Shown: positions 1,452-54,411 of the stretch, one piece after another
How the letters are laid out: every line of letters begins with the position of its first letter
Position numbering within the stretch: position 1 is the first letter of the stretch
Origin: Isosphaera sp.
GTDB taxonomy: Bacteria > Planctomycetota > Planctomycetia > Gemmatales > Gemmataceae
DNA: 62,552 bases
Reading direction: 5' to 3'
Assembly (NCBI GenBank): GCA_013822345.1
Contig: PNKH01000037.1
Span: 1 to 62,552 of the forward strand
Made by a program: the position numbers and the translations under genes
The notes under the pieces: generated by a model
What the model was told of the DNA's origin: nothing
Database searches by the model: none
Seen by the model: the letters and a program-made list of their open reading frames with translations, nothing else

Positions 1452-4400
1452 GTGACCCTGTTTGCCGTCCTCAGCCCCGCACTCGCCGCCGGCGCCGCCG
1501 CCGCCGCCGTCGGCGTCCCGCTCCTCATCCACCTCCTCTTCCGCAAGCGGTACCAGGTCGTCCCCTGGGCCGCCGTCCGGTTCCTCCTCGTCGCCGAGCG
1601 GCGGCACCGCCGCCGCGTCGACCAGTGGGTCCTCCTCGCCCTCCGCGCCCTCGCCCTCCTCCTCCCCCTCGTCGCCATGGCCGCCGCCACCGACTGGGCC
1701 GAGAAGCTCTGGCAGGCGATCAAGCCCGGCGAGACCCAGGTCGTCGCCAACGTCCCCCGCACCCACCACGTCCTCGTCCTCGACGCCTCCCTGTCCATGA
1801 CCGCCCGGCCCGGCGGCGGGCCGTCCCGGTTCGAGACCGCCGTCGCCCACGCCGAGGCCGTCGTCCGCGCCGCCGGGCCCGGCGACGGGTTCACCCTCCT
1901 CGTCCTCCCCGGGAACGTCCAGAACCCGGCCGTCCGCGGCCCGTCCAACGACCCGGACAAGGTCGTCGCCGAGCTGCGGAAGGTCAAGCCGACCCACGCC
2001 CCGGCCGACACCGCCGCCGCCCTCTCCGCCGTCGCCGAGGTCCTCTCCCAGTCCCCCCGGGCGTACCCCCGCCGGCAGGTCACCTTCCTCACCGACCTCC
2101 AGAAGTCCGCCTGGGCCAACGCCCTCCCGCGCGGCGACGGCCCGCCCCCCGAGGCGTGGCAGCGGGTCGCCGGCCGGGCCGACGCGGTCGTCGTCGACGC
2201 CGCCCGCGCCGACCTCGACAACCTCGCCGTCGCCGACCTCGCCCTCGCCGACCCGCTCCCGTTCGTCCACGCCCCCGCCGCCGTCACCGCCGTCGTCGTC
2301 AACCACGGCCGGTCCGAGCGGCGCGACGTCCGCGTCCAGCTCCTCCTCGGCCGACCGGACCGGCCGGCCGAGCCCGTCGCGGTCGAGCAGCAGACGGTCA
2401 AGGTCCTCGCCCCCGGGGAGCGGGCCGCCGTGGGCTTCGGGGCCGACGGCCAGGTCCGGTTCCGCGACCCCGGCACCCACGTCCTCCAGGTCCGGCTGGT
2501 CGAGCCCGACGACCTGCCGGCCGACGACGCCCGGGCGCTGGCCGTCCGGGTGCGGGAGGGGCTGACCGCCGTCCTGGTGGACGGGAAGCCGACCGACCCG
2601 GCCCCGGCCCGGCGGGCCGCGTGGTACCTCCACCGGGCGCTGCGGCCGCCGGACGCCCGCCCGTCCCAAACCCCGGCCCGGCCCGGCGACCGCCCGCTCG
2701 CCCCGGCCGACTTCGCCGCCGCCGACCTCGCCGGGGTCGACTGCGTCTACCTGTGCGACATCCCGGCCCCGGACGCCGACCTCGCCGCCCGACTCGACGC
2801 CGTCTTGCGCCGCGGCGGCGGGGTGGTGATCGGCCTCGGGCCGACCGCCGCCGCCCACCGCGACGCGTACAACCGGCACCTGTTCGCGGACGGCAACGGC
2901 GTCCTCCCCGGCCCGCTCGCCGATGTCGTCACCGCCGGCCCGAACGACCCCGGGTTCCGCCTCGCCGCGGAGGAAGAGGAGTACCGCCGGCCGCCGCTCG
3001 CCCTGTTCCGCGACGAGGACGTGCGGGCCGGCCTGGTCACCGTCCCGTTCACCTCCTACCTCCGGCTCGACGTGCCGCCGGACGGCCGGGCCCGCCGCCT
3101 CCTGTCGTTCGTCCCGGCCGGGGCGCCGGGCGGGAGCGCCGCCCGCGGCAAGCCCGACCCGGCGGTGGTCGAGTGGACCAAACACCGCGGGCGGGTCGTG
3201 GTGTACACCAGCTCGTTCAACGAGGACTGGAACATCTGGCCGACGCTCCCGACCTACCTGCCGTTCCAGGACCAGCTGCTGAAGTTCGTCGCCGCCACCC
3301 CGGACCGGCACACCGTCCCGGTCGGCGACACCCTGGAAGAGTTCTACCCGCCGGCCGGCGGCGACCGGACGGCCAGCCTGGTCGGGCCGGAGGGGCTGAC
3401 CGCCGACGTGCCGCTCGCCCTCCGCGATGAGGCTGAGGTCGCCCGGTTCCCGGACGCCCGGCTCGCAGGGCTGTACCGGTTCCGGCTGAAGGGGGCGGCG
3501 GACGCGGTGTTCGCCGTCAACACGCCCGAGTCCGCCACGGGGGCCGGCCCCGAGTCCGACCTGCGGCGGATCGACCCGACCCTGTTCCGGTCGGTCGGCC
3601 CGGTCCAGGTGGTCGCCGACCCGGCCGACATCCGGGCGTCGGCGGCGAGCGGGGCGGAGCTGGTGTCGGCCCCGAAGCCGCACGGCCCGGCGGTCGCCCG
3701 GGTCGCGGTCCTCCTCGCGCTCGCCGTGCTGGCGGCCGAGCTCTTCCTGGCGTGGCGGTGGGGCCCGGCCCGGAACGCGGCCGGGGCCGTTCGGGGGGTC
3801 GACCGGAAGTGGATCGTCCGGGTGCTGTCTACCGCGGCCGCCCTCGTCCCGCTCGCCGCCGCAGTGTTCGTCCTCGGAACGCTGGTTCACTACGAGCGGA
3901 CCGGCGACCTGCTCGGGTTCCTCCCGGACGGCACCCGGCGGTGGGCCGAGGCCGCGGCCGGGGTGCCGGCGGCCCAGCCGGGCGAGGGGACCCGGTGGCG
4001 GCTGGAGTGGTTCACCACCTTCTCCCGGAACGGCACCGTCGACCGCCGGGTCGTGCTCGGCCTGGCCGCGGCCGCCCTGGTCCTGACCGTTGCGGTCTAC
4101 CGGCTCGAGCGGCGGGCGGTCGCCGGGGCGGGGCGGGTCGTCGTCCCCGGGCTGACCCGCCTGGCCGTGTTCCTGCTGGCGCTGTTCGTGCTGCTGCCGC
4201 AGGTCCGGCTGGCGTTCGACCGGGAGGGGTGGCCGGAGGTCGTCATCCTGGTCGACACGTCCGCCAGCATGGGCCACGAGGACGACTACAAGGACCCGGC
4301 GGTCCGGGCGAAGGCGGAGGAACTCGTGGCCGCGGCCGGGCTGCCGAAGGCCGACCGGCTCCGCCTCGCCCAGGCGGTGCTGACCCGGCCCGGGGCCGAC

Positions 4401-6470
4401 TGGCTCGACCGGCTCCTGCAGGAGAAGCAGGTGAAGGTCCACCTGTTCACGGTGGACATGACCACCCGGCACGTCGGGTCGGCGGACCAGTCGGCGGACG
4501 CGGCGGACGTCCGGGCGGCGCTGCGGAAGCTCACCCCGGACGGGGAGGCGTCGCGCCTCGGGGAGGGGGTCGAGGCGGTGCTGAAGGCGTTCAAGGCGCG
4601 GTCGCTGGCCGCGGTCGTCATGTTCACCGACGGGGTGACGACGGCCGGGGACGGGCTTCGGGAGGCGGGGCGGGAGGCGGCCCGGGCCGGGGTCCCGCTG
4701 TTCCTGGTCGGGGTCGGGGACGCGTGGGACGTGCCGGACCTGGAGCTGACCGACGTGCAGGCCGAGGACACCGTCACGGTCGGGGACCGGCTGGTGTTCG
4801 ACGCCCGGCTGGCGGCCCGCGGCCAGGTCCCGCCGGACCCGGTCGCGGTGGTCCTGTACGAGCGGGTGAACGGCGAGCTGGTCGAGCGCGGGCGGCAGAC
4901 GGTGACCCCGGACCCGGGCGGGAACCGCGTCCCGGTGACCGTCGCCCACACCCCGACCGAGGCGGGGGTGAAGACGTTCATCCTCGCCGCCCCGACCGTC
5001 CCCGGGGAGACGGACGGGTCGAACAACCGGGTCGAGCGGACGGTGGTGGTGACCGACTCGAAGCGGCTCCAGGTGCTGTACATCGAGGGGTATCCGCGGT
5101 ACGACTTCCGGTTCGTGAAGACGCTCCTGGAGCGGGAGGCGGAGCGGTCGGCCGGGGGGAAGGGGGTGGAGGTCCACGTCCTGTTGCTCGGGGCGTCGGC
5201 CGGGTGGGCGACGACCGACCGGAGTGCCCGGTTCCTCCAGGGGTCCGGCCGCGGCGACTTCCCGACCCGGGACCAGTTGTTCGCCTACGACGCGGTCATC
5301 CTCGGGGATGTCGACCCGAAGCAGATCCCGAAGGCGGCGACGGCGCTGCAGGACCTGGCCGACTTCGTCCGGGTGCGGAAGGCGGGGGAGGGCGGGGGGC
5401 TGCTGTTCCTGTGCGGCGAGCACGGCACCCCGGCGGCGTACGCCGACACCCCCTTGGCCGACATCCTGCCGGTCACCCCGGACCCGGCCGCGGCGCGGGC
5501 CGCCCCGGCGGACGACGGCCCGTCGGCGGAGCCGTTCCGCCCGCGGCTGACCCCGGCCGGCGAGCAGCACCCGCTGTTCCGGTTCTCCCCGGACCCGGAG
5601 GAGTCGAAGGCGGTGTGGAAGCGGCTGCAGCCGCTGTACTGGGCGGCGAGCGGGTACCGGCGGAAGGCGAACACGGTGGTGCTGGCCGAGCACCCGGACC
5701 GGCCGGCGGAGGGGGCCGGGGCGGGGGAGCGGCACCCGCTGGTGGTGCAGGCGTTCGCCGGGGCCGGGCTGGTGCTGTTCTTCGGGTTCGACGACACCTG
5801 GCGGTGGCGGTACCGGAACGACGAGGAGTACTTCGACCGGTTCTGGGTGCAGGCGGTGCGGGTGCTGTCGAAGGCCCGGAGCCGGCGGGTGGAGCTGCGG
5901 GTCGAGCCGAAGTCCGACTTCCGCCGGGACGAGAAGATGACGGTGGTGGTGCGGTTCCCGGTGGAGGCCCCGGCCCCGCCGCCCGGCCAGCCGGTGCGGG
6001 TGGCGCTGGCCCGCGGCCCGCTGCCGCGGCCGGACGGGAGCCCGGGGGTCGGGCCGACGGAGTCGAGCACCCTGTCGCTGGCCCGGGTGGAGGGCCCCGG
6101 GGTACAGTACGCGACGACGCTGACCCGCACCCCGGAGGGCGAGTACCGGTTCACCCTGGTGGACCCGGAGCCGCCGCCCGGGACGGCCGCCCCGACGGCG
6201 GTGGCGCGGGTGCGTCCGCCGCTGGCCGAGCGGGACCGGGTGCAGCTGAACAAGCCGGACCTGGCGGCGGCGGCGGCGCTGTCGCCGGGCGGGTTCTACA
6301 CCCTGGCGGACGCCGACCGGGTGCTGGACGACCTGAAGGACCTGAACCGGGTGCCGCTGAACCAGCCGTGCGACCCGGTGCCGCTGTGGAACCACCCGCT
6401 GACGTACCTGCTGCTGCTGGCGCTACTGGCGTCCGAGTGGCTTTTGCGGAAGCGCGAGCGGCTGTTATGA
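1452..6470 (+). CDS. BatA N-terminal / double von Willebrand factor A membrane protein
   Basis: Large envelope protein of 1672 aa. Residues 1-80 match the BatA (aerotolerance regulator) N-terminal membrane segment (PLLIHLLFRKRYQ, then a hydrophobic helix). A first VWA-like domain has DASLS at 111-115, and a second has a canonical MIDAS motif DTSAS at 935-939. Membrane helices lie near 751-770, 790-810, 867-885 and 897-920. A class-I glutamine amidotransferase-like stretch runs from about 1207 to 1470, and a last helix lies near 1650. The protein reads as two usually separate proteins, BatA-like and VWA/GATase-like, joined near residue 780 without a stop. Start is GTG at 1452, chosen because the BatA helix begins there. 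VWA/BatA proteins often work with MoxR ATPases, and a MoxR gene lies at 16136-17110. The exact function is unknown. Confidence 0.85.
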   Translation: MTLFAVLSPALAAGAAAAAVGVPLLIHLLFRKRYQVVPWAAVRFLLVAERRHRRRVDQWVLLALRALALLLPLVAMAAATDWAEKLWQAIKPGETQVVANVPRTHHVLVLDASLSMTARPGGGPSRFETAVAHAEAVVRAAGPGDGFTLLVLPGNVQNPAVRGPSNDPDKVVAELRKVKPTHAPADTAAALSAVAEVLSQSPRAYPRRQVTFLTDLQKSAWANALPRGDGPPPEAWQRVAGRADAVVVDAARADLDNLAVADLALADPLPFVHAPAAVTAVVVNHGRSERRDVRVQLLLGRPDRPAEPVAVEQQTVKVLAPGERAAVGFGADGQVRFRDPGTHVLQVRLVEPDDLPADDARALAVRVREGLTAVLVDGKPTDPAPARRAAWYLHRALRPPDARPSQTPARPGDRPLAPADFAAADLAGVDCVYLCDIPAPDADLAARLDAVLRRGGGVVIGLGPTAAAHRDAYNRHLFADGNGVLPGPLADVVTAGPNDPGFRLAAEEEEYRRPPLALFRDEDVRAGLVTVPFTSYLRLDVPPDGRARRLLSFVPAGAPGGSAARGKPDPAVVEWTKHRGRVVVYTSSFNEDWNIWPTLPTYLPFQDQLLKFVAATPDRHTVPVGDTLEEFYPPAGGDRTASLVGPEGLTADVPLALRDEAEVARFPDARLAGLYRFRLKGAADAVFAVNTPESATGAGPESDLRRIDPTLFRSVGPVQVVADPADIRASAASGAELVSAPKPHGPAVARVAVLLALAVLAAELFLAWRWGPARNAAGAVRGVDRKWIVRVLSTAAALVPLAAAVFVLGTLVHYERTGDLLGFLPDGTRRWAEAAAGVPAAQPGEGTRWRLEWFTTFSRNGTVDRRVVLGLAAAALVLTVAVYRLERRAVAGAGRVVVPGLTRLAVFLLALFVLLPQVRLAFDREGWPEVVILVDTSASMGHEDDYKDPAVRAKAEELVAAAGLPKADRLRLAQAVLTRPGADWLDRLLQEKQVKVHLFTVDMTTRHVGSADQSADAADVRAALRKLTPDGEASRLGEGVEAVLKAFKARSLAAVVMFTDGVTTAGDGLREAGREAARAGVPLFLVGVGDAWDVPDLELTDVQAEDTVTVGDRLVFDARLAARGQVPPDPVAVVLYERVNGELVERGRQTVTPDPGGNRVPVTVAHTPTEAGVKTFILAAPTVPGETDGSNNRVERTVVVTDSKRLQVLYIEGYPRYDFRFVKTLLEREAERSAGGKGVEVHVLLLGASAGWATTDRSARFLQGSGRGDFPTRDQLFAYDAVILGDVDPKQIPKAATALQDLADFVRVRKAGEGGGLLFLCGEHGTPAAYADTPLADILPVTPDPAAARAAPADDGPSAEPFRPRLTPAGEQHPLFRFSPDPEESKAVWKRLQPLYWAASGYRRKANTVVLAEHPDRPAEGAGAGERHPLVVQAFAGAGLVLFFGFDDTWRWRYRNDEEYFDRFWVQAVRVLSKARSRRVELRVEPKSDFRRDEKMTVVVRFPVEAPAPPPGQPVRVALARGPLPRPDGSPGVGPTESSTLSLARVEGPGVQYATTLTRTPEGEYRFTLVDPEPPPGTAAPTAVARVRPPLAERDRVQLNKPDLAAAAALSPGGFYTLADADRVLDDLKDLNRVPLNQPCDPVPLWNHPLTYLLLLALLASEWLLRKRERLL

Positions 6471-12993: not shown

Positions 12994-13059
12994 GCCGTCC
13001 GAGCCGGACGCGTCAGCGACGGAAAGCAACACCGTCGCTGACGCGTCCGGCTCGGACGG
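12994..13059. repeat. Family B palindrome (28-bp arms)
   Basis: A near-perfect inverted repeat with the core CCGTCCGAGCCGGACGCGTC in each arm and a 9-nt loop (13023-13031). Only the outermost base fails to pair. It lies between two plus-strand genes and could act as a terminator. Sister copies are at 15991 and 31465. Confidence 0.9.
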
Positions 13060-15990: not shown

Positions 15991-16056
15991 CCGTCCGAGC
16001 CGGAAGCGTGAGCGACGGCGGAGCGGAGCCGTCGCTCACGCTTCCGGCTCGGACGG
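15991..16056. repeat. Family B palindrome (perfect 29-bp arms)
   Basis: Arms 15991-16019 and 16028-16056 are exact inverse copies (core CCGTCCGAGCCGGAAGCGTG) around an 8-nt loop. It lies 20 bases upstream of the lgt start, between lgt and the MoxR gene. Because it precedes rather than follows lgt on the minus strand, it would sit in the mRNA leader if the genes are cotranscribed. Confidence 0.92.
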
Positions 16057-31174: not shown

Positions 31175-31486
31175 ATGTCCGTCATGCGGCTGCGGCTGGT
31201 GCTCGGGCTGATGTTCCTGGTCCTGGCGGCGGCGATCTTCACCCGGGCGTGGACGGCCCCGGACCTGGACGCCCGGTTCGACCCGGTGCGGATGAACCTC
31301 GGCGGGGTGCTGGCCCTGGTGTTCGGCGGGCTGAACCTGGCCCGGTGGTACGCCGCGTACTCGTACCGGCAGGCGCGGCGGACGCCGGTCCGCACCCCGC
31401 TGCAGCCGGACCCGTCGGCGGCCGGGCCGGAGCCGCCGAACCCGGACCTGGACTTCTCGAAACGGCCGTCCGAGCCGGACGCGTGA
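31175..31486 (+). CDS. Small two-helix membrane protein, unknown function
   Basis: A 103-aa product with two hydrophobic helices (LRLVLGLMFLVLAAAIFTRA at about 6-25; LGGVLALVFGGLNLARWY at about 42-59) and a polar, Pro-rich tail. ATG 31175 is preceded by GGGGGG. Its last residues PSEPDA and the TGA come from the left arm of the palindrome at 31465-31533, so the original C-terminus may have been different. No family is recognised. Confidence 0.7.
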   Translation: MSVMRLRLVLGLMFLVLAAAIFTRAWTAPDLDARFDPVRMNLGGVLALVFGGLNLARWYAAYSYRQARRTPVRTPLQPDPSAAGPEPPNPDLDFSKRPSEPDA

Positions 31487-31533
31487 GCGACGGGTCTTGC
31501 CGGGCCGTCGCTCACGCGTCCGGCTCGGACGGC
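31465..31533. repeat. Family B palindrome forming the ends of two genes
   Basis: Perfect 29-bp arms (31465-31493, 31505-31533) surround an 11-nt loop. The left arm contains the last codons and stop of the plus-strand gene, and the right arm contains those of the minus-strand gene, so both proteins end PSEPDA. It also has the form of a bidirectional terminator. Confidence 0.95.
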
Positions 31534-32531
31534 CACCTCACCGGCGGGAGGCCGAGCACCTCGACCGGCTGCCGCCCGGCCGCGGTCTCCGCCCCCATCC
31601 GCGTCCCCGGGTCCTGGTGCTTCCACCTCAGGTACGCCAGGGCGACCGGCGCCCCGAGCCGCGGCGAGTGACAACTCGACGTCACGACGCCGACCTCCTG
31701 CCCGTCGTGGAACAGCTTCGCCCCGGCCGGGAGCGGCCCGCCGTCCAGCACCTTCAGCCCGAGGAACGACCGCACCGCGTGCCCGGTCCGGTCGCGGGCC
31801 ATCACGATCGGCTCCTGCCCCAGGAAGCAACCCTTGCCGTAGCTCACCGCCCGGGCGAACCGGCCCACCTCCATCACCGCCCGGTTCGCGTCGATGTCGA
31901 CGCCGAACACCGGCGTGCCCGCCTCGACCCGCAGCGTCTCGAGCGTGTCGGCCGTGCCCGGCGTCGCCCCCGCGGCTTCGAGCTGTCGGCGGACCACCTC
32001 CGCGCGCTCCGCCCGGCAGACCAGGTCGAACCCCGGGAGGCCGAGCTGGTCGCGGCGGCGGATCGAACATGTCGCGTCGGCCCCGAGCGTCCGCTCCATG
32101 TGTGCGAACTCCGGCAGCTCCGGGACGGCCTCGCCGAGCATCTTCCCCAACACCTCCGCGGCCTTCGGGCCGGCGAGGTGGAACTGGGCGAACGCTGCGG
32201 TCTCGTCGGCGATCTCGACCTGCTCGGAGATCAGGTAGCGGTCGAGATACCGGACGAGGTCGGCGTTCCGGCCGGCGGTCGTCTCGACCCACAGGGCGTG
32301 CCGGCCGTCGGCCAGGCGGACGTGGTAGATCCACGCCGCGAACTGGACCTTCGCCCGGGCGTCGCAGAAGTACGCCTCGCACCCGCCGCCGAGCGGCAGG
32401 TCGGCGGTGTCGGCGGTGCTGAGGTTCCCGAGGAACAGCGGGGCGTCGGGGCCGGTCAGCAGGAGCTTGCCGGCGGCCGACGTGTCGAACACGGCGGCGG
32501 ACGCGACGGCGGCGGCGTAGTCGGGGGACAT
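31512..32531 (-). CDS. YgfZ/GcvT-like folate-binding protein
   Basis: A 339-aa cytoplasmic protein of the YgfZ/GcvT family, tetrahydrofolate-dependent proteins that help iron-sulphur enzymes such as MiaB. The YgfZ signature KGCFLGQEPIVMARDRTGH (about 253-271; compare the KGCYxGQE consensus) is intact. N-terminal GcvT-like fold sequences include AVFDTSAAGKLLLTGPDAPL. ATG 32531 removes a Pro/Arg-rich upstream extension that overlaps a palindrome. The final PSEPDA and stop are encoded by the palindrome arm. Confidence 0.87.
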   Translation of the reverse strand: MSPDYAAAVASAAVFDTSAAGKLLLTGPDAPLFLGNLSTADTADLPLGGGCEAYFCDARAKVQFAAWIYHVRLADGRHALWVETTAGRNADLVRYLDRYLISEQVEIADETAAFAQFHLAGPKAAEVLGKMLGEAVPELPEFAHMERTLGADATCSIRRRDQLGLPGFDLVCRAERAEVVRRQLEAAGATPGTADTLETLRVEAGTPVFGVDIDANRAVMEVGRFARAVSYGKGCFLGQEPIVMARDRTGHAVRSFLGLKVLDGGPLPAGAKLFHDGQEVGVVTSSCHSPRLGAPVALAYLRWKHQDPGTRMGAETAAGRQPVEVLGLPPVRWPSEPDA

Positions 32532-32542
32532 GCCGGACCTCG

Positions 32543-32638
32543 TAGGGTGGGCCGAGCCGGCGCCTCGCCGGCGAGTCCCACCGGGGTTCGCGGGGCGGTG
32601 GGACTCGCCGGCGAGGCGCCGGCTCGGCCGCACCCTAC
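32543..32638. repeat. Family E palindrome with 41-bp arms
   Basis: Outer ends are GTAGGGTG and CACCCTAC. Each arm also contains its own hairpin (GAGCCGGCGCCTCGCCGGCG and its inverse). Arms pair along about 41 bp with one mismatch, around a GC-rich loop. The right end supplies the TAG stop of the LarA-like gene (32635-32637). Confidence 0.9.
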
Positions 32639-35895: not shown

Positions 35896-35955
35896 GGGAG
35901 GGCGAGGCTCCTGCCGAGCCGGAGGTGGACGGCTCGGCAGGAGCCTCGCCCTCCC
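35896..35955. repeat. Family C palindrome (perfect 25-bp arms)
   Basis: Arms 35896-35920 and 35931-35955 (GGGAGGGCGAGGCTCCTGCC...) with a 10-nt loop GGAGGTGGAC. A sister copy with nearly the same loop is at 54331. It follows the aldehyde dehydrogenase gene and may terminate it. Confidence 0.92.
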
Positions 35956-36704: not shown

Positions 36705-38069
36705 ATGACCACCTTTGCCTTCGACCACCTCCCGGTGCCGGACGTCCGCACCCCGCTCCCGGGGCCGCAGGGGGCGGAACTCCTCGCGCGCGACCTGCAG
36801 TACGTATCCCCGTCGTACACCCCGGCGTACCCGCTGTTCGTCGACCGGGCGAGCGGGTGTGTCGTCCGCGACGTGGACGGGAACCTGTTCCTCGACTTCA
36901 CCGCCGGGATCGCGGTCACCAACACCGGGCACTGCCACCCGGAGGTGGTGGCGGCGATCAAGGACCAGGCCGACAAGCTGCTCCACATGAGCGGCACCGA
37001 CTTCTACTACCGCCCGCAGATCGACCTCGCCGAGCGGCTGGCGAAGGTCGCCCCCGGGCCGACGCCGAAGAAGGTGTTCTTCGCGAACAGCGGGGCGGAG
37101 GCGGTCGAGGGGGCGCTGAAGCTCGCCCGGTGGCACACCCGGCGGAACCGGGCGGTCGCGTTCTTCGGGGCGTTCCACGGCCGCACCTACGGGGCGATGT
37201 CGCTGTCCGGGTCGAAGCTCGCCCACCGCCGCGGGTTCTCCCCGCTCGTCCCGGACATCCACCACGTCGAGTTCCCGCGCGGCTGCCCGCCGGAGTGCCC
37301 GGCGAACCGCGACCGTCAGGGAGCGGGTGAGGGCGGCGCACACCCGCTCCCTGACGGTCGCGGTTCGCCCGGCTGCCACCTCGCCGCCGACATCGGGGAG
37401 ACGCTGTTCCGCCGGACGTGCCCGCCGGAGGAGGTGGCCGCGATCTTCGTCGAGCCGGTGCAGGGGGAGGGCGGGTATCACCCGCTGCCGCCCGGGTGCC
37501 TGCCCGCCCTCCGTGAGCTGTGTGACCGGCACGGCATCCTGCTGGTCGCCGACGAGGTGCAGTCCGGGATGGGGCGGACCGGGAAGATGTTCGCGGTCGA
37601 GCACTACGGGGTCGAGCCGGACATCATCTGCTCGGCGAAGGGGATCGCCAGCGGGATGCCGCTCGGGGCGATCATCGCCCGGGCGCGGGTCATGGACTGG
37701 CCGAGCGGCAGCCACGCGAGCACGTTCGGCGGCAACCCGGTCGCCTGCCGGGCGGCGCTGGCGACGATCGACCTGCTGGAGCGCGAGTACCTCGCGAACG
37801 CGGCGGCGCGGGGCGAGCAGCTGCGGGCCGGGCTGCGGGAGCTGGCGGCCCGGCGCCCGGAACTGACCGGGGTCCGCGGGCTGGGGCTGATGACAGCGGT
37901 CGACCTGCCGACCGGGCCGCGGCGGGACGAGGTGATCCAGGCGGCGTTCCGCCGCGGGCTCTTGTTGCTCGGGTGCGGGGAGCGGGCGGTGCGGTTCTGC
38001 CCGCCGCTGTGCGTGACCGCGGACCAGGTCGGGACGTGCCTGCGGCTCCTCGACGGGGTGCTCGGGTAG
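36705..38069 (+). CDS. Class-III PLP aminotransferase, interrupted in frame by a palindrome
   Basis: A 454-aa aminotransferase of the acetylornithine/4-aminobutyrate type. Motifs: FFANSGAEAVEGALKLAR, FFGAFHGRTYGAMSLSGSK, VAAIFVEPVQGEGGY, the cofactor Asp in VADEVQSGMGRTG, and PLP lysine K312 in ICSAKGIASG. The substrate cannot be told. Residues about 199-222 (NRDRQGAGEGGAHPLPDGRG) are encoded by a perfect 69-base palindrome (37301-37369) inserted between family-typical blocks. The frame stays open because 69 bases is 23 codons, so the enzyme may still be active. ATG 36705 with GGAGG upstream. Confidence 0.92.
   Translation: MTTFAFDHLPVPDVRTPLPGPQGAELLARDLQYVSPSYTPAYPLFVDRASGCVVRDVDGNLFLDFTAGIAVTNTGHCHPEVVAAIKDQADKLLHMSGTDFYYRPQIDLAERLAKVAPGPTPKKVFFANSGAEAVEGALKLARWHTRRNRAVAFFGAFHGRTYGAMSLSGSKLAHRRGFSPLVPDIHHVEFPRGCPPECPANRDRQGAGEGGAHPLPDGRGSPGCHLAADIGETLFRRTCPPEEVAAIFVEPVQGEGGYHPLPPGCLPALRELCDRHGILLVADEVQSGMGRTGKMFAVEHYGVEPDIICSAKGIASGMPLGAIIARARVMDWPSGSHASTFGGNPVACRAALATIDLLEREYLANAAARGEQLRAGLRELAARRPELTGVRGLGLMTAVDLPTGPRRDEVIQAAFRRGLLLLGCGERAVRFCPPLCVTADQVGTCLRLLDGVLG
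37301..37369. repeat. Family D palindrome inside the aminotransferase gene
   Basis: Arms 37301-37329 and 37341-37369 are exact 29-base inverse copies (GGCGAACCGCGACCGTCAGG...) around an 11-nt loop. It lies wholly inside a reading frame. The same family is intergenic at 40934-41001. Confidence 0.96.
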
Positions 38070-40922: not shown

Positions 40923-40933
40923 GTCGTCTCCCG

Positions 40934-41001
40934 GCGAGCCGTGACCGTCAGGGAGCGGGTGCCGCCTCACCCACACCCGCTCCCTGACGGTCGCGGTTCG
41001 C
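40934..41001. repeat. Family D palindrome, intergenic copy
   Basis: The core arms 40943-40961 and 40974-40992 (GACCGTCAGGGAGCGGGTG and its inverse) are perfect. The outer part pairs with two mismatches (GCGAGCCGT against GCGGTTCGC). The loop is 12 nt. It lies between the Gfo/Idh-type oxidoreductase gene and the transporter gene. Confidence 0.92.
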
Positions 41002-41008
41002 TAAATCC

Positions 41009-48478: not shown

Positions 48479-48538
48479 GTAGCAGGCACACTCCGTGTGC
48501 CGCCCGCTGGCTGGCGGCACACGGAGTGTGCCTGCTAC
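48479..48538. repeat. Palindrome with perfect 26-bp arms
   Basis: 48479-48504 and 48513-48538 (GTAGCAGGCACACTCCGTGT and so on) pair exactly around an 8-nt loop. It lies between the DedA/ATP-grasp gene and the Cld-like lipoprotein gene, both on the minus strand. Each arm holds a smaller hairpin. Confidence 0.92.
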
Positions 48539-53453: not shown

Positions 53454-54288
53454 CCGGCCGCTCGGCCCGGCCGACGCCGACGGCCTGACGCCGCTGGTCG
53501 AGGAGGCCGGGTGGAACCAGACGCCGGCCGACTGGCGGCTGATCCTCGGGGCGGGTCGCGGGGTCGGGGCGGTCGGCCCGGACGGGCGGGTGGTCGGCAC
53601 CGCGGCCGGGCTGCCGCTCGGCGGCGCGACCTGGGTGTGCATGGTGTTGGTGTCGGCCGCACACCGCGGGCGGGGCGTCGCGACCCGGCTGACGCGGGCG
53701 GTGCTCGACGCGGCCGGCGGCCCCGCCGCGCTCGACGCGACCGAGTTCGGCCGGCCGGTCTACCACCGGCTCGGGTTCCGCGACCTGTACCCGCTGACGC
53801 GGTGGCGGCTCGACCCCGTCGCACAACCGTCCTCGGTTGTGCGCCAGGGGGCACAACCGAGGACGGTTGTGCGACGGGCCGGAGACCTGCCGGCCGTGGT
53901 CGCGTTCGACCAGGCCCGGACCGGGCTGGACCGGACGCCGATCCTCGCCGACCTGGTGGCCCGCGCCCCGGAGTTGGCGTTCGCGGCCGAGGCCGGCCGG
54001 CGGGTGACGGGGTTCGTCCTCGGCCGGCCCGGTCGGGTGGCGACGCAAGTCGGGCCGGTCGTGGCCGACGACCCGGACACCGCGCTCGGGTTGTTGCGGC
54101 GGGCGGTGACGGCGGTCCGCGGGCCGGTGTTCGTCGACGTGCCGGACGCCCACACCGGGATGGCCGGGTGGCTGGCGGCGCACGGCGGGACGCGGCAGCG
54201 GAACTTCGTCCGGATGGCGCTCGGTGATGTCGGAACGCTCGCCGATCCCAGCTTGGTGTCGGCGGTGGCCGGCCCCGACCTCGGGTGA
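53440..54288 (+). CDS. GNAT-family acetyltransferase, interrupted in frame by a palindrome
   Basis: A 282-aa protein with a GNAT domain: acetyl-CoA motif ICMVLVSAAHRGRGVATRLT-like (VLVSAAHRGRGVATRLTRAV, about 70-89) and FGRPVYHRLGFRDLYPLTRW (about 102-121). A second, weaker GNAT-like half follows (about 150-282; VTGFVLGRPGRVATQVGPVV). Residues about 126-146 (PVAQPSSVVRQGAQPRTVVR) are encoded by a perfect palindrome lying between the two halves. ATG 53440 has GAGGTGCGGG upstream and overlaps the epimerase gene. Acceptor unknown. Confidence 0.85.
   Translation: MGGTDRPLGPADADGLTPLVEEAGWNQTPADWRLILGAGRGVGAVGPDGRVVGTAAGLPLGGATWVCMVLVSAAHRGRGVATRLTRAVLDAAGGPAALDATEFGRPVYHRLGFRDLYPLTRWRLDPVAQPSSVVRQGAQPRTVVRRAGDLPAVVAFDQARTGLDRTPILADLVARAPELAFAAEAGRRVTGFVLGRPGRVATQVGPVVADDPDTALGLLRRAVTAVRGPVFVDVPDAHTGMAGWLAAHGGTRQRNFVRMALGDVGTLADPSLVSAVAGPDLG
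53815..53878. repeat. Palindrome inside the acetyltransferase gene
   Basis: Arms 53815-53842 and 53851-53878 are exact 28-base inverse copies with an 8-nt loop. Each arm contains its own hairpin GCACAACCG-TCCT-CGGTTGTGC. It lies wholly inside the reading frame. Confidence 0.95.
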
Positions 54289-54330
54289 GGAGCCGCCGCA
54301 GATGACTCAGAAACGGTTCCGGAAAACGGT

Positions 54331-54390
54331 GGGAGGGCGAGGCTCCCGCCGAGCCGGAGGTCGGCGGCCCGGCGGGAGCCTCGCCCTCCC
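54331..54390. repeat. Family C palindrome, second copy
   Basis: 25-bp arms (GGGAGGGCGAGGCTCCCGCC...) with one mismatch and a 10-nt loop GGAGGTCGGC, close to the copy at 35896. It lies between two convergent genes and can act as a bidirectional terminator. Confidence 0.92.
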
Positions 54391-54411
54391 ACGCCACCTC
54401 TCAACGGGTAC

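Follow-up and report, generated by a model that had tools for sequence, protein, structure and literature searches.

The perfect palindrome at positions 37301-37369 of the window, i.e., the whole analyzed stretch of 62,552 nt from contig PNKH01000037.1 (contig 37) of Isosphaera sp. GCA_013822345.1 (genome G000), probably belongs to a family of REPIN-like miniature mobile elements that multiplied in this Gemmataceae genome and are kept within genes only in frame and at tolerant loops of the encoded proteins. A mover of the RAYT type is inferred. Movement of the family is likewise inferred from its distribution; it was never observed and no empty site at strain level is available. At least 16 protein genes in G000 carry an in-frame copy, and the data suggest that proteins with tolerant loops are lengthened repeatedly by mobile DNA.

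The palindrome is located in ORF 36705-38069 (+ strand), which encodes a product of 454 amino acids. Its best NCBIfam match is NF004426, the acetyl ornithine aminotransferase family, with 548.8 bits (the cut-off of 552 is narrowly missed). The gene was classified as a class-III aminotransferase gene (acetylornithine/4-aminobutyrate aminotransferase-like), in agreement with a preliminary description of this DNA, which had also placed a lysine about 90 residues behind the insert; the invariant lysine K312, which we take to be the PLP lysine, is found at this distance on the C-terminal side. The left arm at 37301-37329 (+ strand), a REP-like unit that represents the consensus arm of the family, is followed by an 11-nt loop at 37330-37340 and by the right arm at 37341-37369 (- strand), which is the exact reverse complement of the left arm and is read as HPLPDGRGSP. 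The perfect 29-bp stem, the 11-nt loop and the uninterrupted reading frame across the palindrome had all been claimed beforehand and were reproduced here. Flank composition and fold define an extended element of 75 nt (37298-37372), including the semi-conserved outer bases CCG and CGG, and a longer imperfect form has 38-nt arms at 92%. Folded alone, 37298-37372 reached z = -11.2 as DNA and z = -10.7 as RNA, and in both cases none of 200 shuffled sequences was equally stable. A single arm folded as DNA was no better than shuffled sequence (z = 0.26).

Within the window, the 19-nt core of the arm occurs four times at up to three mismatches, compared to 0.18 expected occurrences. A second copy, reported earlier at 40934-41001, was found at 40933-41002 with a 12-nt loop. 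It is intergenic, as had been stated, and the stop codon of the adjacent gene ends 10 nt or less away. This copy is less perfect than 37301-37369, with 28-nt arms at 93% which are exact in the 19-nt cores and differ in their outer parts. Long palindromes of several other families are also present in the window, one of them in an open coding frame (53815-53878, 28-nt arms and 8-nt loop) and others at 12995-13059, 15991-16056, 31464-31534, 32550-32629, 35896-35955, 48479-48538 and 54329-54392.

Genome G000 comprises 7,468,024 bases (7.47 Mb) in 226 contigs and is 95% complete. With up to two mismatches the arm core was found at 344 sites, 170 in forward and 174 in reverse orientation, and the reversed control pattern gave a single site; the check for the arm elsewhere in the genome, proposed with the first description, was thereby positive. 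Exact 16-nt cores were matched by 77 inverted dimers. For a closer inspection, a sample was composed of the window and 53 regions around copies among the matches listed, taken from contigs 1 to 63 in the order of listing and not by gene context. It covers 453,055 nt, about 6% of the genome length, in regions picked around elements. After removal of 36 too divergent clusters of arm matches out of 108, 72 elements remained: 61 '+-' (convergent) dimers, 10 '-+' dimers and one single unit. Both 29-nt arms equal the consensus in 49 of the 61 '+-' dimers and the outer bases CCG/CGG are semi-conserved, while all 61 loops are distinct, with a modal length of 11 nt (21 of 61). The unit ends read (CCG)GGCGAAC and GGGTG; an unpaired GTAG or CGTC end tag is absent from the unit ends of the family, CGTC being seen only within the unit. 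Base pairing that extends into the loop is weak (17 versus 14.5 expected). Copying of the loop from flanking DNA was considered and rejected, as the longest match of a loop to its own flank averages 5.70, which lies within the range for shuffled flanks (mean 5.63). Several of the '-+' dimers (L067, L077, L116 and L122) lie between G/T-rich and C/A-rich flanks resembling a further imperfect inverted repeat, and the sample also contains 84 palindromes of other families, which form 33 groups. In the proposed mechanism, the mobile element would be made up of a free spacer between two 29-nt units in inverted orientation, and it could fold into a hairpin in single-stranded DNA. According to the accessible part of PMC8049555, a REPIN is a pair of REPs in inverted orientation, separated by a short spacer of high diversity.

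Among 95 genomes of the taxonomic family, 20 contain the arm core at up to one mismatch. G000 has 316 occurrences, followed by G025 (112), G019 (24) and G090 (21), and the rest have six or fewer each. An even draw from the phylum yielded the core in eight of 392 genomes, G000 included, where the largest other count was six; the reversed control pattern was present in two genomes of the same draw.

The sampled copies were assigned to coding sequence by a score for codon usage, with 109 long ORFs as the training set, so that gene calls represent a score and not an annotation. Sixteen of the 61 '+-' copies, about a quarter, lie in frame with open coding context on both sides, and none of the ten '-+' copies does. 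Of the remaining 45 '+-' copies, which are situated between genes, 26 have co-directional neighbors, 13 convergent and 6 divergent ones. The earlier claim that the family lands both in and between genes is thus supported by a count of coding versus intergenic copies that includes their frame. Seventeen co-directional cases, including one '-+' copy, show coding signal right up to the element on either side; in these, the frame upstream ends about 45 nt or less before the element, and therefore no clear gene break by this family was found among the sampled copies; an out-of-frame copy inside a gene was not detected there either. Most of the sampled copies are found between genes, often directly behind a stop codon. 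According to the mechanism we propose, in-gene copies would persist only with an uninterrupted frame and at a position where the protein can accommodate about 23 additional residues.

The aminotransferase gene of the window is the sixteenth host gene alongside 15 others. Six of these encode products above the respective NCBIfam cut-off, namely threonine synthase, the large subunit of glutamate synthase (GltB), TreY, QueG, PurL and TIGR03936. Products below the cut-off of the nearest model are a RarA-like AAA ATPase, a PfaA-like synthase, an MmdA-like carboxylase, an SNF2 helicase and a YdiJ-like dehydrogenase. For a two-domain ABC protein the closest model is ModF, whose cut-off it misses; it exceeds that of CcmA. 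No NCBIfam match was obtained for L078, L113 and L117; the product of L078 presumably resembles BshC. The YdiJ-like gene L097 holds two in-frame palindromes (3835-3904 and 5390-5454), one of which belongs to the family described here and the other to a related subfamily.

In 14 of the 16 in-gene copies, the frame of the gene reads the right arm as HPLPDGRGSP, and in the other two as TRSLTVAVR (binomial p = 0.004 versus equal use of the two open frames). None of the 12 copies with a loop length of 1 mod 3 is coding (p = 0.017). The share of in-gene copies is 16/61 for this family and 4/84 for the other palindrome families of the sample; with an identical detector, the values are 14/66 and 4/84 (p = 0.004). 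Open frames alone were rejected as an explanation of this share, since open frames are more numerous in the other palindromes (2.24 versus 1.83 per copy).

It is conceivable that such an insert is skipped by the ribosome or removed by RNA processing and is absent from the protein, and a 29-bp hairpin is indeed an extreme mRNA structure. An open frame would be unnecessary for bypass, yet each of the 16 copies within genes has an open, matching frame, and no out-of-frame copy in a gene was found in the sample. Because the 16 copies were detected by their openness, the weight of this argument rests on the lack of an out-of-frame copy. The bias of the exit frame is a further point against a loss after transcription, which we regard as very improbable. 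In our preferred reading the aminotransferase insert would be translated and roughly neutral. Both properties are inferred.

For the aminotransferase, the best 80 named homologue loci were compared. The segment at the insertion site measures 19-43 amino acids in 74 of them and 48-58 in six, with 54 in the window protein. The six long segments belong to records of Gemmataceae or other planctomycetes. L216, which corresponds to G025, has the same palindrome family, and the other five differ in sequence. The short form was observed in homologues from Chloroflexi, Acidobacteria, Desulfobacterales and archaea. The expectation that homologues lack the additional residues was therefore met, distant phyla included. 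Two outcomes would have refuted the preliminary description, namely the same residues in distant phyla and an arm restricted to this locus; neither occurred, as the loop of distant homologues is short and the arm is widespread in the genome. A structure model, calculated with the window protein and 46 homologues, has a mean pLDDT of 89.2. All 23 residues with a pLDDT below 50 (200-204 and 206-223) fall into the insert, which is the only such stretch of the model. From the low pLDDT and the variable loop length in relatives we infer a tolerated position at the protein surface, and on the basis of the model the insert probably adds a disordered loop.

The corresponding sites in other species were identified by searching the joined flanks of the 16 host genes in seven congeneric relatives, among the matches listed, for which 60 further stretches were added. 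In total, 92 of 112 gene-genome pairs were examinable; ten of the 20 missing pairs fall in the incomplete genome G025. For the aminotransferase, 12 additional genomes were included, which brought the number of orthologous sites to 104 (19 of the aminotransferase and 85 others). All 110 rows extracted between the flanks, including repeats and G000's own row, are in frame. A strong palindrome (stem score ≥10) is present at 37 of the 104 orthologous sites and in none of 151 length-matched adjacent control stretches, and a fold z ≤ -4 was reached by 35 sites and no control. The palindromic sites cover 15 of the 16 host genes. As the sites were picked because they are filled in G000, the ratio of 37/104 cannot be read as a rate for the whole genome. 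At the other 67 sites the loop is short or is filled by an insert that lacks a strong palindrome, and GltB shows no strong palindrome among its three orthologous sites; both count against the preferred reading. Two inserts of G025, in L132 (YdiJ) and L139 (QueG), resemble a lone remaining palindrome arm and are perhaps decaying copies.

Compared with the 29-nt arm, four of the 37 palindromic inserts match 23-27 positions (as good in 0 of 200 shuffles): those in the aminotransferase of G025, in QueG of G010 and in MmdA and ThrC of G022. Five are borderline with 20-21 positions (shuffles as good 0 to 2 of 200), and 28 match 18 positions or fewer, the same as shuffled sequence. The same loops were accordingly entered by relatives of the 37301-37369 family as well as by unlike palindromes, given that four of 37 inserts are arm-like and 28 are not. 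Clustering of the inserts and the G000 arm by shared words resulted in 13, 20 and 23 groups at word lengths of 12, 14 and 16. This clustering was based on arms only, since clustering of whole elements by 12-mers chained unlike inserts; at word length 12 many arms still chain to that of G000. At one site, inserts of different species are without any common 14-mer. In the preferred reading, the related species carry palindrome families of their own, which became lodged in these tolerant loops as well.

These sites could also have been filled once in an ancestor, with arms subsequently homogenized in each genome by conversion or template-switch repair and loops left to diverge, so that every species would have arms of its own sequence. 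Near-identical arms, yet loops that all differ, would be expected in this case, and the occupation of the same sites in several species, the four arm-like and five borderline inserts of relatives and the identical change in both arms of the aminotransferase copy of G025 and of the copies L094 and L119 are in line with it. An equivalent alternative was considered by the authors of PMC3767692 for the Rickettsia elements RPE-4/6/7, as far as the available text of that paper extends. Conversion driven by homology cannot yield unlike inserts at one site, so that the 28 inserts without arm similarity and the site without a common 14-mer count against such concerted evolution, as does the short loop in many relatives. 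In a tree of eight genomes, G022, G015 and G018 form one group with G000, and G010 and G011 another with G025 (G025 is represented by 720 residues, G000 by 1,680). G000 and G025 are thus not sisters and the family they share at the aminotransferase site is most readily explained by two insertions or a transfer. We consider old insertions with concerted evolution improbable. The mostly unlike families at the same loops favor a hotspot for repeated insertion, which can be tested across many genes and genomes.

The enzyme that moves the element was sought among five Y1_Tnp matches in G000. L032 and L033 score above the RAYT cut-off of NF047646 and L034 below it; L033 is bordered on both sides by palindromes of its own. 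No core of the 37301-37369 family (≤4 mismatches) was found within 1.5 kb of any Y1 gene in the 226 contigs of this 95% complete genome, and for this reason a RAYT-type (Y1 HUH) transposase as mover is merely inferred. The hairpin and RAYT argument for REPINs was put forward in PMC3116915, of which we could draw on a part. The missing GTAG/CGTC ends and the lone arm, which unlike classical REPs does not fold better than shuffled sequence, also speak against the preferred reading. L320, a RAYT-like gene of G015 with a weaker score (42.5 bits versus the cut-off of 80), is flanked on both sides by palindromes of one family, and the downstream one has GGCGAGC...GGTG ends like several in-gene elements of the genus. 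This gene and the RAYT genes L032 and L033 of G000 count in favor of the preferred reading. Taken together, L031, L033, L035 and L320 are Y1-type transposase matches with palindromes on both sides.

Another transposition route would involve an IS transposase acting on terminal inverted repeats, as in MITEs, or a Y1 enzyme of the IS200 type. The lack of a RAYT beside the family in G000 is compatible with such a route, and neighbors of the IS200 type exist: G025 has a copy of the family about 1.3 kb from the Y1 gene L308, and L297 of G019 is preceded, at a distance of about 250 bp, by a related palindrome. A target-site duplication (abutting direct repeat of ≥3 nt) was detected in one of 61 '+-' dimers, compared to 1.6 expected, which argues against MITE-type movers but not against the IS200 type. 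Architecture and diverse spacer fit REPINs, and we judge a route without a RAYT-type enzyme to be rather unlikely.

From the preferred reading of a REPIN-like element we derive a more tentative proposal, which we doubt slightly more than we trust: housekeeping proteins of Gemmataceae would contain landing loops for mostly unlike palindromes, which enter them repeatedly and in frame, and the 37301-37369 family may be adapted to coding sequence. Such an adaptation is possible in view of the usual length, a multiple of three with two of three frames then open, the hydrophilic exit frame in 14 of 16 copies and the excess inside genes. If the landing-loop proposal holds true, mobile palindromes would continually supply Gemmataceae with new protein loops. 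The shared sites also offer a naturally made chart of the places at which conserved enzymes accept insertions, and a way in which selfish DNA gives rise to protein sequence. That unlike families have entered one and the same loop, on such a scale, appears to be new.

Comparison with known systems shows the closest likeness in anatomy to REPINs. The preliminary description had pointed to the palindromic elements of Rickettsia (RPEs); the likeness holds for in-frame insertion in conserved proteins, whereas the anatomy, two REPs in opposite orientation flanking a diverse spacer, is more like that of a REPIN. Its remark that no such account was known for planctomycetes is valid insofar as no account of in-gene palindrome copies in this phylum was found in the literature available to us; the nearest source is PMC3733652, whose accessible part records REPs themselves in planctomycetes. 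The same part describes intragenic REPs in a verrucomicrobium (Opitutus terrae) and in Xanthomonas recB, with different REPs at about the same site. A true RPE, acquired by descent or transfer, would likewise be inserted in frame in conserved proteins, at likely exposed loops. RPEs are Rickettsia-specific and have a length of 105-146 bp according to the portion of PMC2229807 at hand, compared to 69-75 bp here, and their anatomy differs. Without a comparison of sequences, we therefore consider this origin barely credible. The portion cited also reports translation and activity for a guanylate kinase that contains an RPE. For shared RPE sites, a hotspot for different insertions and one old, diverged insertion were both weighed, and extended RPE-4 was found at the same sites in Rickettsia (PMC3767692, consulted in part). 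RPE fusions are reviewed in PMC10969869 and RPE genes listed in PMC2635572, both available in excerpts.

RPEs and the family presented here have in common that they are palindromic, lie in frame in conserved genes at exposed protein positions and occupy sites shared between species. They differ in length (105-146 bp versus 69 bp, or 75 bp with outer bases) and anatomy, and the same-site inserts of Rickettsia are one extended element, as far as PMC3767692 could be evaluated, while mostly unlike families were observed here. A MITE of a transposon that generates target-site duplications is distinguished by these duplications, which the family lacks above chance. With the intragenic GTAG/CGTC-tagged REPs of Opitutus terrae and Xanthomonas recB the family shares REP dimers in genes and 20-30 added residues, on the evidence of the accessible part of PMC3733652. 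It differs by the lack of tags, and for 15 of its 16 host genes one relative or more has a palindrome at the corresponding site. REPINs of Pseudomonas and others, as characterized in the available parts of PMC3116915 and PMC8049555, correspond to the family in their inverted conserved units, diverse short spacer, single-strand hairpin and many, mostly extragenic copies. In contrast to them, the family of 37301-37369 has no GTAG-type tag, a weak hairpin within the unit, almost no singlets among the sampled elements (1/72) and no RAYT that was found next to it, and about a quarter of its sampled convergent copies are placed in frame within genes.
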